Assembly: GCF_010692725.1 (NCBI RefSeq)
Contig: NZ_JAAFZB010000094.1
Coordinates: 124,001 to 188,000 of the forward strand
Origin: Flavihumibacter soli
GTDB taxonomy: Bacteria; Bacteroidota; Bacteroidia; Sphingobacteriales; Sphingobacteriaceae
Reading direction: 5' to 3'
DNA: 64,000 bases
How positions within the stretch are numbered: the first letter of the stretch is position 1; every line of letters starts with the position of its first letter. Position numbers and translations under genes: made by a program. Shown here piece by piece: positions 41,311 through 50,420 of this stretch. The notes below the pieces were generated by a model that was given only the letters and a program-made list of their open reading frames with translations, had not been told where the DNA came from and did not search any database.

Positions 41311-41376
41311 CAGTAATAATGGTACACATTACCGTAATCCGTATCCTTCTCCCTGACGAAACAAACAAGACATTTG
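41311..41376 (+). promoter_or_regulatory. AraC-regulon element A and -7 box
   Basis: Element CAGTAA-N4-GGTA-N7-CCGTAATC at 41311-41339, then exactly 29 nt, then GACATTTG at 41369-41376. The same element, spacer length and GAnnTTTG box occur upstream of 42647 and 50442. No -33 TTTG is present, as expected for an activator-dependent promoter. It faces the aldo/keto reductase gene, with a leader of about 175 nt. Confidence 0.7.
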
Positions 41377-41557
41377 GAATATGAACGCTGCAAACCTGGT
41401 TTGTGGTGGGCCCGATCCCAAAAAATCGAGACTGGACGTGATTGAAAAGGCCGTAACGTCGCGGAACCTGCACTAGTTCTGCGGGCTCCGCGAACAGTGA
41501 GGCTGTTTATATTACAGAACCAGTGGGAACGTTTTGATTTTGAGAAAATAATAAGAT
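41377..41557 (+). other. Long leader before the aldo/keto reductase
   Basis: About 180 bp between element A's -7 box and the reductase ATG. It contains a 31-codon open frame (ATG 41381 to TAG 41476) whose ATG is too close to the predicted transcription start to be clearly translated. The other two copies of the element have leaders of only about 15-20 nt. It may be a regulatory leader or a decayed insertion. Confidence 0.35.
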
Positions 41558-42541
41558 ATGGAAAAGCGTAAACTTGGAAATAGCGGGCTGGAAGTTTCGG
41601 CCCTGGGTCTTGGTTGTATGGGATTGAGCTTTGGCTATGGTCCGGCAACAGATAAGAAACAAGCGATTCAATTAATCAGGGAAGCGTTCGAACAAGGCGT
41701 TACCTTTTTTGACACGGCCGAAGCCTATGGCCCGTTCGACAATGAAGAACTACTTGGGCAGGCATTGGAGCCATTCCGGAACCAGGTGGTGATTGCAACC
41801 AAGTTTGGTTTCAAAGGTGGAAAAACGGAACTTGGGATGGACAGTACACCCGAAAACATCCGGGCAGTGACCGAAGCCGCACTCAAACGTCTGAAAACTG
41901 ATGCCATTGACTTACTTTACCAACATCGTGTTGACCCCAATGTACCTGTCGAGGAAGTAGCCGGCACAGTGAAGGCTCTTATTCAGGAAGGCAAGGTCAA
42001 ACATTTTGGACTGTCTGAAGCAAGTGCAGACACCATCCGAAGGGCGCACGCGGTACAGACGGTAACAGCAGTGCAGAGTGAATACTCGCTATGGTGGCGG
42101 GCGCCTGAAAAGGAGATCCTCCCTGCACTCGAAGAACTGGGTATTGGCTTTGTACCGTTCAGCCCGCTTGGGAAAGGTTTTCTAACCGGTAAGATAGATG
42201 AGAAGACCACATTCGACAAGACGGACTTCCGGAACGTTGTTCCCCGCTTTTCTGAGGAAAACCGGAAGGCAAACCAGGCTTTGGTTGATTTACTTGCAAA
42301 GATTGCGACAGAAAAAGATGCCACTTCTGCACAGATAGCATTAGCCTGGTTGCTTGCACAGAAGCGGTGGATAGTGCCTATTCCGGGAACCACCAAATTG
42401 CACCGCTTGAAGGAAAATGTTGCCGCTGCTGAAATTAAGCTTACAACAATTGAGTTCAAAGACATCGGCGATGCAATTTCACAAATCGACGTGCAGGGTG
42501 CTCGTTATCCTGAACATCTTCAAAAGCGAGTGGATCAGTAG
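41558..42541 (+). CDS. Aldo/keto reductase (cytoplasmic)
   Basis: NADPH-dependent reductase of 327 residues in the YajO/IolS-like aldo/keto reductase group, reducing aldehydes or ketones. The catalytic tetrad is visible: Asp and Tyr in [14 protein letters not shown], Lys in VIATKFGF, His in [10 protein letters not shown]-terminal cofactor-binding region includes [23 protein letters not shown]. No signal peptide, unlike its relative at 43647. Divergent from the AraC regulator and preceded by element A, so probably induced by that regulator. Substrate unknown. Confidence 0.92.
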
Positions 42542-42555
42542 GGCTTTTGTCTATT

Positions 42556-42621
42556 CAGTAAAAATGGTACACAAATCCGTAATCTGTATCCTCCCCTGAT
42601 GAAAAGAAGGTCAGACCTTTG
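42556..42621 (+). promoter_or_regulatory. AraC-regulon element B and -7 box
   Basis: CAGTAA-N4-GGTA-N7-CCGTAATC at 42556-42584, 29 nt, then GACCTTTG at 42614-42621; the cupin ATG follows at 42647. Sixteen of the first 18 bases of the GGTA block and its flanking CAGTAA match copy A outside the N positions, and the spacing is identical. It probably drives the long unit starting with the cupin. Confidence 0.7.
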
Positions 42622-42646
42622 TATCTGATGCTTTAACCCCGACCCC

Positions 42647-48631: not shown

Positions 48632-48676
48632 GCTGCACATCGACAATAACAAATTACATAGTCAAGCAATCATAAA

Positions 48677-49132
48677 ATGAAAAAATCAATTATTGGACTA
48701 TTATTTATTCTTTTAAGTGCACAAGGATCTTTTGCACAGCAATCTGCCACTGAACAGGAAATTAAAGATCTCTCTAAAGCAAAATGGCAATGGATGGCAG
48801 ACAAGAATGTTGACAAGCTGGCTTCACTCTTCCACGATAAATCAAAATTCGTCCATATGAGTGGAACCTGGAAAAAGAACGAGGAGCTCGACATCATTAA
48901 AACCGGAAGAATTTGGTACAAGAAAGCTGATGTCCACGATGTTGCCGTAGAAGTTATTGACGACAATGCTATCGTTTGGAATCGAATTACGTTGACGGCC
49001 GTGGTTCGGGGCACTGACGCGGTGAATGAATTTACCGTCACGGAAGTTTATAAAAAACAGGGGAACGATTGGAAACTGTTAGCCTTGACGTTTAGCAGTG
49101 TGCGTGACACCCATAAAATTGAACATGAGTAA
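48677..49132 (+). CDS. Exported NTF2-like protein, second copy
   Basis: A 151-residue protein with signal peptide (MKKSIIGLLFILLSAQGSFAQ) and strong resemblance to the 43133 product over the whole length (LSKAKWQWMADKNVDKLASLFHDKSKFVHMSGTW, TVTEVYKKQGNDWKLLALTFSSV). Both keep the same FVHM and IWYKKA segments. An ancient tandem-type duplication within the cluster is the simplest reading. Function unknown; follows the esterase by 45 bp. Confidence 0.82.
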   Translation: MKKSIIGLLFILLSAQGSFAQQSATEQEIKDLSKAKWQWMADKNVDKLASLFHDKSKFVHMSGTWKKNEELDIIKTGRIWYKKADVHDVAVEVIDDNAIVWNRITLTAVVRGTDAVNEFTVTEVYKKQGNDWKLLALTFSSVRDTHKIEHE

Positions 49133-49235
49133 AAACAAATTGAACGATCCCGATAGCGAAAGGCCCTTTCGATTATAAGGTTGAAAGGCGTTTGACCTAT
49201 TGAACAGGCTGCATTGATAATCCAAAATTACGTTT

Positions 49236-50360
49236 ATGTATAAACTCGAATTAAAAAAGGCAAGGGCAGGCTTTGGTGTTTTATCAGTTGCAATCTCCGT
49301 TCTATTTGCAGCTTGCGCATCTAATAAAGGAGGCATAAGCAAGCGGCAGTTAACCATCCGGGAACAAGGCAGCTTTGCAGCTGGCGGTACTGTGATTACT
49401 GAACCCGGCACTTTCGATCCTGTTAAACACGGAGCATTTGATCCCGCAAACCAGAGCTCAGAGGGTCAGACATTGCGCGGCGATCATGCATATGTTTTTT
49501 ACCAGGTACCTGAGAACGCCCGTAAACTACCGCTTGTGTTCTGGCATGGCTACGGACAATCTGCAAAGACCTGGGAAACTACTCCGGACGGGCGTGAAGG
49601 ATATCAGAACATTTTCCTGCGCCGCCGCTTTCCAGTTTACCTGGTCGACCAGCCAAGACGTGGCCGGGCGGCACGAAGCACCAAGCCGGTCACCGTTAAT
49701 GCAGCACCGGATGAGCAGCTTTGGTTTGGTATTTTCCGCATGGGTATTGGTTCTGATTTTTATCCCGGTGTTCAGTTTGCAAAAGATCCGGAGACATTGA
49801 ACCAGTTCTTCCGGCACATGGTTCCGAACACAGGTCCTTTTGATATGGAAGTAAATACAGATGCGGTATCAGCCTTATTCAACAAGATCGGGACCGGCAT
49901 CCTTGTTACACATTCGCACAGCGGCGGACAGGGATGGCGCACTGCCGTCAAAAACCCGAATATAAAAGCTATTGTGGCTTATGAACCGGGTAGCAGCTTT
50001 ATATTTCCCGAAGGCGAAGTACCCCAACCAATAAGCTATGTGGGCGGGCTGCTGAAAGCTGTTGCTGCTCCTATGGCTGAATTTATGCAGTTGACGAAAA
50101 TTCCCATAATCATCTATTACGGCGATTATATACCCGACGAGCCAACACAAAATCCCGGGCAGGAACAGTGGCGTGCTGCTCGCGCCATGGCCCGGTTATG
50201 GCGAGATACCGTAAATAAACACGGCGGTGATGTGACCCTGATCTATCTTCCTGACATAGGGATCAATGGCAATACGCACTTTCCCATGTCAGACCTGAAC
50301 AATGTGCAGATAGCTGATCTCATGTCAAAATGGTTAAAAGAGAAAGGATTAGATCAGTAA
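49236..50360 (+). CDS. Lipoprotein alpha/beta hydrolase
   Basis: A 374-residue alpha/beta hydrolase with a lipoprotein signal (VAISVLFAACASNKGG, lipid on Cys about 27). Oxyanion region LPLVFWHGYGQSAKTWETTPDGREGYQNIFL, nucleophile elbow in ILVTHSHSGGQGW, acid in IIYYGDYIPDE, and histidine near GINGNTHFPMSD. This domain layout is found in a family of uncharacterised bacterial esterases next to oxidoreductases. A short hairpin (49157-49171) precedes it. The last sense codon and stop (CAGTAA) form the left end of regulatory element C. Confidence 0.85.
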   Translation: MYKLELKKARAGFGVLSVAISVLFAACASNKGGISKRQLTIREQGSFAAGGTVITEPGTFDPVKHGAFDPANQSSEGQTLRGDHAYVFYQVPENARKLPLVFWHGYGQSAKTWETTPDGREGYQNIFLRRRFPVYLVDQPRRGRAARSTKPVTVNAAPDEQLWFGIFRMGIGSDFYPGVQFAKDPETLNQFFRHMVPNTGPFDMEVNTDAVSALFNKIGTGILVTHSHSGGQGWRTAVKNPNIKAIVAYEPGSSFIFPEGEVPQPISYVGGLLKAVAAPMAEFMQLTKIPIIIYYGDYIPDEPTQNPGQEQWRAARAMARLWRDTVNKHGGDVTLIYLPDIGINGNTHFPMSDLNNVQIADLMSKWLKEKGLDQ

Positions 50361-50420
50361 TATTGGTAGTAATTCCCGTAATCCGTCTACTATACAATCT
50401 TTTTCCTGTTCGGATCTTTG
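50355..50420 (+). promoter_or_regulatory. AraC-regulon element C and -7 box
   Basis: CAGTAA-N4-GGTA-N7-CCGTAATC at 50355-50383, 29 nt, then GATCTTTG at 50413-50420; the flavodoxin ATG follows at 50442. It overlaps the hydrolase stop codon. The spacing to the GAnnTTTG box is identical to copies A and B. Confidence 0.65.

Follow-up and report, generated by a model that had tools for sequence, protein, structure and literature searches.

The locus and its predicted operator copies

A stretch of 64,000 nucleotides (nt) of Flavihumibacter soli DNA (contig NZ_JAAFZB010000094.1, positions 124,001 to 188,000), referred to here as the window, contains the gene for an AraC-type regulator together with three copies of a short element that, judged from sequence, are very probably the binding sites of this neighbouring regulator. 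The element matches CAGTAA-N4-GGTA-N7-CCGTAATC exactly at 41311-41339, 42556-42584 and 50355-50383 (copies A, B and C), always on the plus strand, and GAnnTTTG begins at 41369, 42614 and 50413, in each case 29 nt past the copy. These matches confirm the sequence, number, spacing and boxes given in a preliminary description of the DNA, and the gene positions agree with its further statements that the AraC-type gene is divergent from copy A and that the copies head a reductase (41558), a cupin (42647) and a flavodoxin (50442) gene. No further match to the motif occurs in the window at up to three mismatches, and 100 dinucleotide shuffles gave 0 matches. The copies are alike over 41 nt, more than the 29-nt element first described, and the conserved predicted operator covers about 38 nt, ATCAGTAATAWTGGTA-N7-CNGTAATCNGTATAC, which represents two direct half-sites 21 base pairs (bp) apart. 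The features are as follows.

41309..41346, plus strand: predicted operator copy A, the full 38-nt site around the motif first described at 41311-41339 (motif scan, profile and copy comparison)
42554..42591, plus strand: predicted operator copy B (motif scan, profile and copy comparison)
50353..50390, plus strand: predicted operator copy C, overlapping the stop codon TAA (50358-50360) of a hydrolase gene
41369..41376, plus strand: GACATTTG, predicted -7 box of the reductase promoter
42614..42621, plus strand: GACCTTTG, predicted -7 box of the cupin unit
50413..50420, plus strand: GATCTTTG, predicted -7 box of the flavodoxin unit
41264..41271, minus strand: TAACTTTG, predicted -7 box for the promoter of the AraC gene itself, at 39 nt from the site
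40337..41239, minus strand: AraC-type regulator gene, 300 amino acids from the ATG at 41239, HTH_18, with a cupin-like N-terminal domain in the model
41558..42541, plus strand: aldo/keto reductase gene (PF00248, E 3.5e-75), predicted target of copy A
42647..50360, plus strand: predicted copy B unit, putatively one transcript
50442..52930, plus strand: predicted copy C unit, putatively one transcript

The regulator has a C-terminal domain with two helix-turn-helix motifs (HTH_18), which places it in the AraC/XylS family, and its N-terminal part is modelled as an AraC/RhaR-like cupin sensor and dimerisation domain. The copy B unit begins with a cupin, a DUF4440 protein, a second aldo/keto reductase and a weakly matching SGL/arylesterase-like open reading frame (ORF), and continues with a glucose/sorbosone dehydrogenase-like protein, a cytochrome c, an esterase, another DUF4440 protein and an alpha/beta hydrolase. 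The copy C unit encodes flavodoxin, a carboxymuconolactone decarboxylase (CMD) family protein and an alpha/beta hydrolase of the DLH/S15 kind.

A scan of the organism's own genome finds one more copy, with a single mismatch, on contig C86, where it precedes another aldo/keto reductase gene and again lies 29 nt from GACATTTG. The word "local" in the preliminary description is therefore too narrow, since a fourth site stands on another contig. When up to three mismatches are allowed the genome yields 47 matches against 54 in a control, and so only the four sites with 0-1 mismatch are retained. The reductase behind copy A starts 181 nt past its box (41377-41557), and this leader contains, by eye, a 31-codon ORF; for the targets of B, C and C86 this distance is no more than about 30 nt.

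Conservation of the site and a candidate residue-base link

How well is the site kept beside homologues of the regulator? Two overlapping sets of loci were compared, namely 80 stretches around the best AraC homologues in genomes of the family (at least 55% identity) and the best 80 of 589 loci from one scan of genome contigs. The site lies upstream of the AraC gene, on the opposite strand, in 154 of the 160 loci (77 of 80 in each set), at a median of 64 nt from the aligned start of the AraC protein match; among simulated regions 13 of 800 reach the site score. The preliminary description had named an absence of the motif beside homologues in related species as a possible refutation, and this check leaves its proposal standing. 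Merging near-identical entries leaves 144 distinct loci, whose profile comprises ATCAGTAATAWTGGTA, seven looser positions and CNGTAATCNGTATAC, with GTAAT at indices 2-6 and 23-27, 21 bp apart. A scan of the phylum adds 25 new loci, 24 of which reach the site score, three of them weakly (17 or 18).

The regulator and its site are widespread over many families of Bacteroidota, patchily, and homologues also occur in 53 plasmid records, from which five loci were examined. A Hymenobacter plasmid locus has a 30/31 site with a box at 29 nt that starts with C. Plasmid loci of Parabacteroides (the locus's best match) and Bacteroides finegoldii (the second-best) have 20/31 sites with a box at 29 nt, a score no better than background by sequence, which the Alteromonas plasmid locus attains by chance. 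The candidate site of B. finegoldii has neighbouring genes annotated as flavin reductase, CMD, O-acetyltransferase and flavodoxin.

Across 201 family genomes the full architecture (24 fixed bases, up to three mismatches) is found in 66, with 133 matches, against 5 in a backwards control. With E up to 1e-95 chosen by the analyst as the cut-off for a close AraC homologue, 60 genomes have both site and regulator, 6 the site only, 8 the regulator only and 127 neither. A looser pattern occurred in 104 of the 201 genomes, but its backwards control also matched many genomes, and it is kept as a lead only. In two family genomes, G037 and G163, 8 or 9 full-architecture matches are present (in G037 seven on one 63-kb contig and an eighth elsewhere), and therefore the regulon looks expanded there.

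A more specific link is provided by covariation. All pairings of 36 site positions with 300 protein positions (10,800 pairs) were scored over 167 loci, with no pair preferred. The highest corrected score, 0.438 compared with 0.209 for the next pair, belongs to residue 229 and site index 3, which is the T of GTAAT. In the first half-site this base is T with asparagine at residue 229 (141 of 148), G with lysine (6 of 6), and C with glycine (9 of 9) or serine (3 of 4), and a tree built without column 229 requires a minimum of 13 changes of the residue and 19 of the base. Residue 229 is found within the first recognition helix, aligned to a tryptophan of SoxS; W36 of SoxS and W42 of MarA, in the numbering of those proteins, are residues that touch bases. 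The connection of the element to the AraC-type protein, proposed in the preliminary description, is strongly supported by conservation, co-occurrence and this covariation with the recognition helix.

The same pairing is seen inside the genome itself. Contig C93 encodes the regulator's single full-length paralogue, which is 62% identical to it and carries K229 where the window regulator has N229. The site beside it has the same layout, with GGAAT for GTAAT in both half-sites and 29 nt to GACCTTTG; it is found by the stricter architecture scan and was not listed by the loose own-genome scan. At this locus (L145, G000:C93:80530-100529) the GGAAT/GGAAT site faces a gene similar, by eye, to the Lactamase_B_2 protein in the same place of L156, and CMD-like and aldo/keto-reductase-like genes, also by eye, lie behind the paralogue on the AraC strand.

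Promoter geometry and a proposed activation model

The position of the site relative to the promoter boxes is rigid. NAnnTTTG stands at exactly 29 nt in 112 of the 144 distinct loci, at 28 nt in 9 and at 30 nt in 2, and the first base of the box at 29 nt is G in 80, C in 23, T in 8 and A in 1. On the target side a first base other than T is therefore seen in 104 of 112 boxes upstream of AraC, and at further sites in 33 of 34. In the opposite direction 92 of the 144 loci have TAnnTTTG at a distance of exactly 39 nt from the site, and no other first base precedes AnnTTTG there. Over both strands of the window GAnnTTTG occurs 48 times and TAnnTTTG 43 times, and because both are common the box alone is uninformative and it is the fixed distance that counts.

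The preliminary description had read activator dependence from a weakened first base and a missing -33 element. The position of the site and the conserved non-T base speak for such dependence. The second argument carries no weight: the missing -33 does not distinguish these promoters, because TTG is equally absent 19-21 nt upstream of all 43 TAnnTTTG matches in the window. Where the box lies at 29 nt (112 sites), the -33 place holds TTTG 0 times and TTG once, and TTTG is likewise found at 0 of 92 AraC-side boxes.

The -7 box has been placed at -12 to -5 (PMC9723704, in the part of that paper available). With this placement the operator would span about -72 to -35 of the target promoter, and the tandem direct half-sites, the 21-bp period and the fixed position ending at the -35 region are features of the araI1-I2 type, which makes the element a predicted araI1-I2-like AraC operator. 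Our preferred reading, to which we assign a probability of about 0.87, is that the neighbouring AraC/XylS-family protein uses the 38-nt element as its operator and would activate its targets via the -7 boxes. The site, its spacing and conservation, the co-occurrence, the covariation and the predicted folds are computed results; binding, activation from -72 to -35, autoregulation and the nature of the signal are what we infer from the sequence. One regulator subunit would occupy each of the two tandem half-sites, 21 bp apart, with the first helix-turn-helix reading GTAAT in both, residue 229 its second base, and the second helix-turn-helix reading TGGTA in the upstream half-site and the divergent counterpart GTATA in the downstream one. 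The dimer at about -72 to -35 may then touch RNA polymerase in the manner of class II AraC-like activators at promoters whose -7 box mostly opens with G or C, a presumably poor first base compared with T. The regulator gene is probably autoregulated, since the copy A operator would cover about -50 to -87 of its own TAnnTTTG promoter. In this genome the regulon would comprise the units of copies A, B and C and the reductase on the other contig.

Searched with a weight matrix of the 144 sites, the fetched stretches yield 188 distinct sites, against none when read backwards. Of these, 45 lie elsewhere than upstream of the AraC homologue for which the locus was fetched, and some may adjoin other regulators; picked regardless of any box, they have one at 29 nt in 34 cases and at 28 nt in 4, the first base being G in 32 of the 34. 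A second listing, which required a box and allowed up to four mismatches, gives 186 sites from overlapping sets, so that some are counted twice. A first ORF was chosen mechanically for 181 of them, and Pfam was applied to one member each of the unlabelled clusters of 11, 8 and 5. The aldo/keto reductase cluster takes 95 of the 181, many only 22-27% identical to the window's enzyme; the others are cupin or DUF4440 (12), carboxylesterase (11), flavodoxin (9), CMD (8), short-chain dehydrogenase (8), alpha/beta hydrolases like that of the window (8) and hexapeptide acetyltransferase-like proteins (5), together with 20 smaller clusters. What, then, might the regulator sense? Because the targets are aldo/keto reductases, flavodoxin, CMD, cupin and hydrolases, the best guess is a reactive carbonyl or another electrophile.

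Cupin genes of the window at 42647-43105 and 53024-53512 score 127.5 and 129.4 bits to the NCBIfam (R)-mandelonitrile lyase model, both just below its cut-off of 140. Elsewhere, at 27262-34971 on the minus strand, a 2569-residue ORF resembles, by eye, a large RHS/SpvB-type repeat protein.

Several findings weigh against the activation model or limit its reach. The box is off the exact 29 nt in 32 of 144 loci, and only close homologues (the top 80, and the best 80 of 589) make up the loci compared. The site upstream of AraC was not found in 6 of the 160 loci; of these, L140 has a site apparently cut by the contig end, and in L124, L206 and L237 a site is present at another place of the locus. 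The six genomes with an architecture match and no close AraC homologue count in the same direction, and the Fisher test on co-occurrence takes related genomes as independent. Within the residue-base link, N229 proteins have G at the base in 6 of 148 cases and C in 1, and the second half-site is looser, with G for 5 of 6 K229 proteins and a mixture for G229 (G 4, T 3, C 2). Well-supported branches of the tree give only 4 independent pairs (on average 3.4 agree, 0.0 oppose and 0.6 show no difference), and therefore the link cannot reach significance on the tree. The regulator is also patchy: of 395 phylum genomes, each with five candidates scored, 32 have a homologue at E up to 1e-90, and in the window's genus 3 of 20 genomes have one at E up to 1e-50. 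No operator was found at the Vibrio and Alteromonas plasmid loci (L305 and L306, 45-48% identity), where the best scores are 18/31 and 20/31 and none of the four best matches listed has a box.

How do other explanations compare? The same protein at the same operator might repress its targets until a ligand releases it, and the 3' end of the site does abut the polymerase-binding region. This is unlikely: the non-T first base on the target side (104 of 112; 33 of 34), as opposed to T on the AraC side (92 of 92), is expected where an activator is needed, and the rigid 29-nt spacing would also better suit activation. That another regulator binds the element, with the AraC gene a mere neighbour and target, is more improbable still. 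As many as 11 AraC relatives were scored in one family genome at E up to 1e-50, and the six genomes with a site and no close homologue would fit this idea; the co-occurrence, the covariation with the recognition helix of this very regulator and the same-genome K229 paralogue with its matching changed site all point away from it.

Much the same low standing applies to the proposal that element and box together form a promoter for an alternative sigma factor. In its favour, the box differs from TAnnTTTG at the first base. Against it, the A and TTTG match the primary sigma box, and the upstream part, a 38-nt site built on a 21-bp direct repeat, far exceeds a sigma -33/-35 element in length. Three similar copies inside 9 kb could suggest that a promoter fragment was recently duplicated, or that the element is a mobile repeat, with no regulatory meaning in either case. 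We give this almost no credence, in that the likeness stops at the site (41 nt) bar the box, the site is conserved without its flanks and recurs beside homologues in many genera, and an Rfam search of 41200-53600 at E up to 0.1 returned no RNA element match.

Related systems and significance

With regard to known systems, the arrangement resembles araI1-I2 of Escherichia coli AraC at pBAD in having two tandem half-sites with a 21-bp period that end at the -35 region and a divergent regulator. The regulator would also share with AraC a cupin-like sensor, as modelled, and an AraC/MarA-type DNA-binding domain. It differs in its operator sequence, in a Bacteroidota promoter with a -7 box and in having reductase and redox targets rather than arabinose genes. 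The kind of site is itself already known, because AraC-family motifs are described as direct repeats with 21-bp periodicity, Bacteroides included (PMC3870299, part available). The RhaR/AraC-type rhamnose regulators of Bacteroides given there control sugar regulons through motifs of their own, and the available part mentions no fixed distance to a -7 box.

The nearest known regulator-reductase arrangement, by analogy and as far as the accessible part of PMC8262776 goes, is that of E. coli YqhC, an AraC-type activator of the aldehyde and methylglyoxal reductase genes yqhD and dkgA with a role in aldehyde tolerance. YqhC belongs to another phylum and promoter type, and the targets named in that part are yqhD, dkgA and yqhC, not flavodoxin, CMD or cupin. 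None of the features tested favours orthology to YqhC, and no YqhC-named model is among the NCBIfam matches listed, the presence of such a model in the library being unchecked. An iron-stimulon paper on FldA (PMC10434189, part available) was set aside and not used. No earlier description of the operator was found in the literature searched, which mostly excludes subscription papers, nor is it described in the available parts of PMC8262776, PMC3870299, PMC11253607, PMC9723704, PMC7366714, PMC12858550 and PMC10434189.

Taken jointly, the results allow a wider proposal, whose chances we put at a little under even: a carbonyl/redox regulon across Bacteroidota built on a rigid divergent module (activator-dependent GAnnTTTG, 29 nt, tandem operator, 39 nt and the regulator's own TAnnTTTG), in which the first base of the -7 box would act as a lock and residue 229 (N, K or G) would set the second base of GTAAT (T, G or C). 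If this is true, the duplicated N229 and K229 regulators of this genome would be kept apart by one residue and one base per half-site. The operator may also extend to gut Parabacteroides and Bacteroides, where possible diverged sites keep the 29-nt spacing.

Little on Bacteroidota activator sites was found in the literature searched. The operator described here is recognisable next to almost every close homologue examined, stands at two fixed distances from -7 boxes and comes with a candidate residue-base code. It would offer a clean system for how an AraC protein drives a TAnnTTTG-using polymerase and for the role of the first base of the box, and it predicts targets for many AraC genes whose role is unknown.
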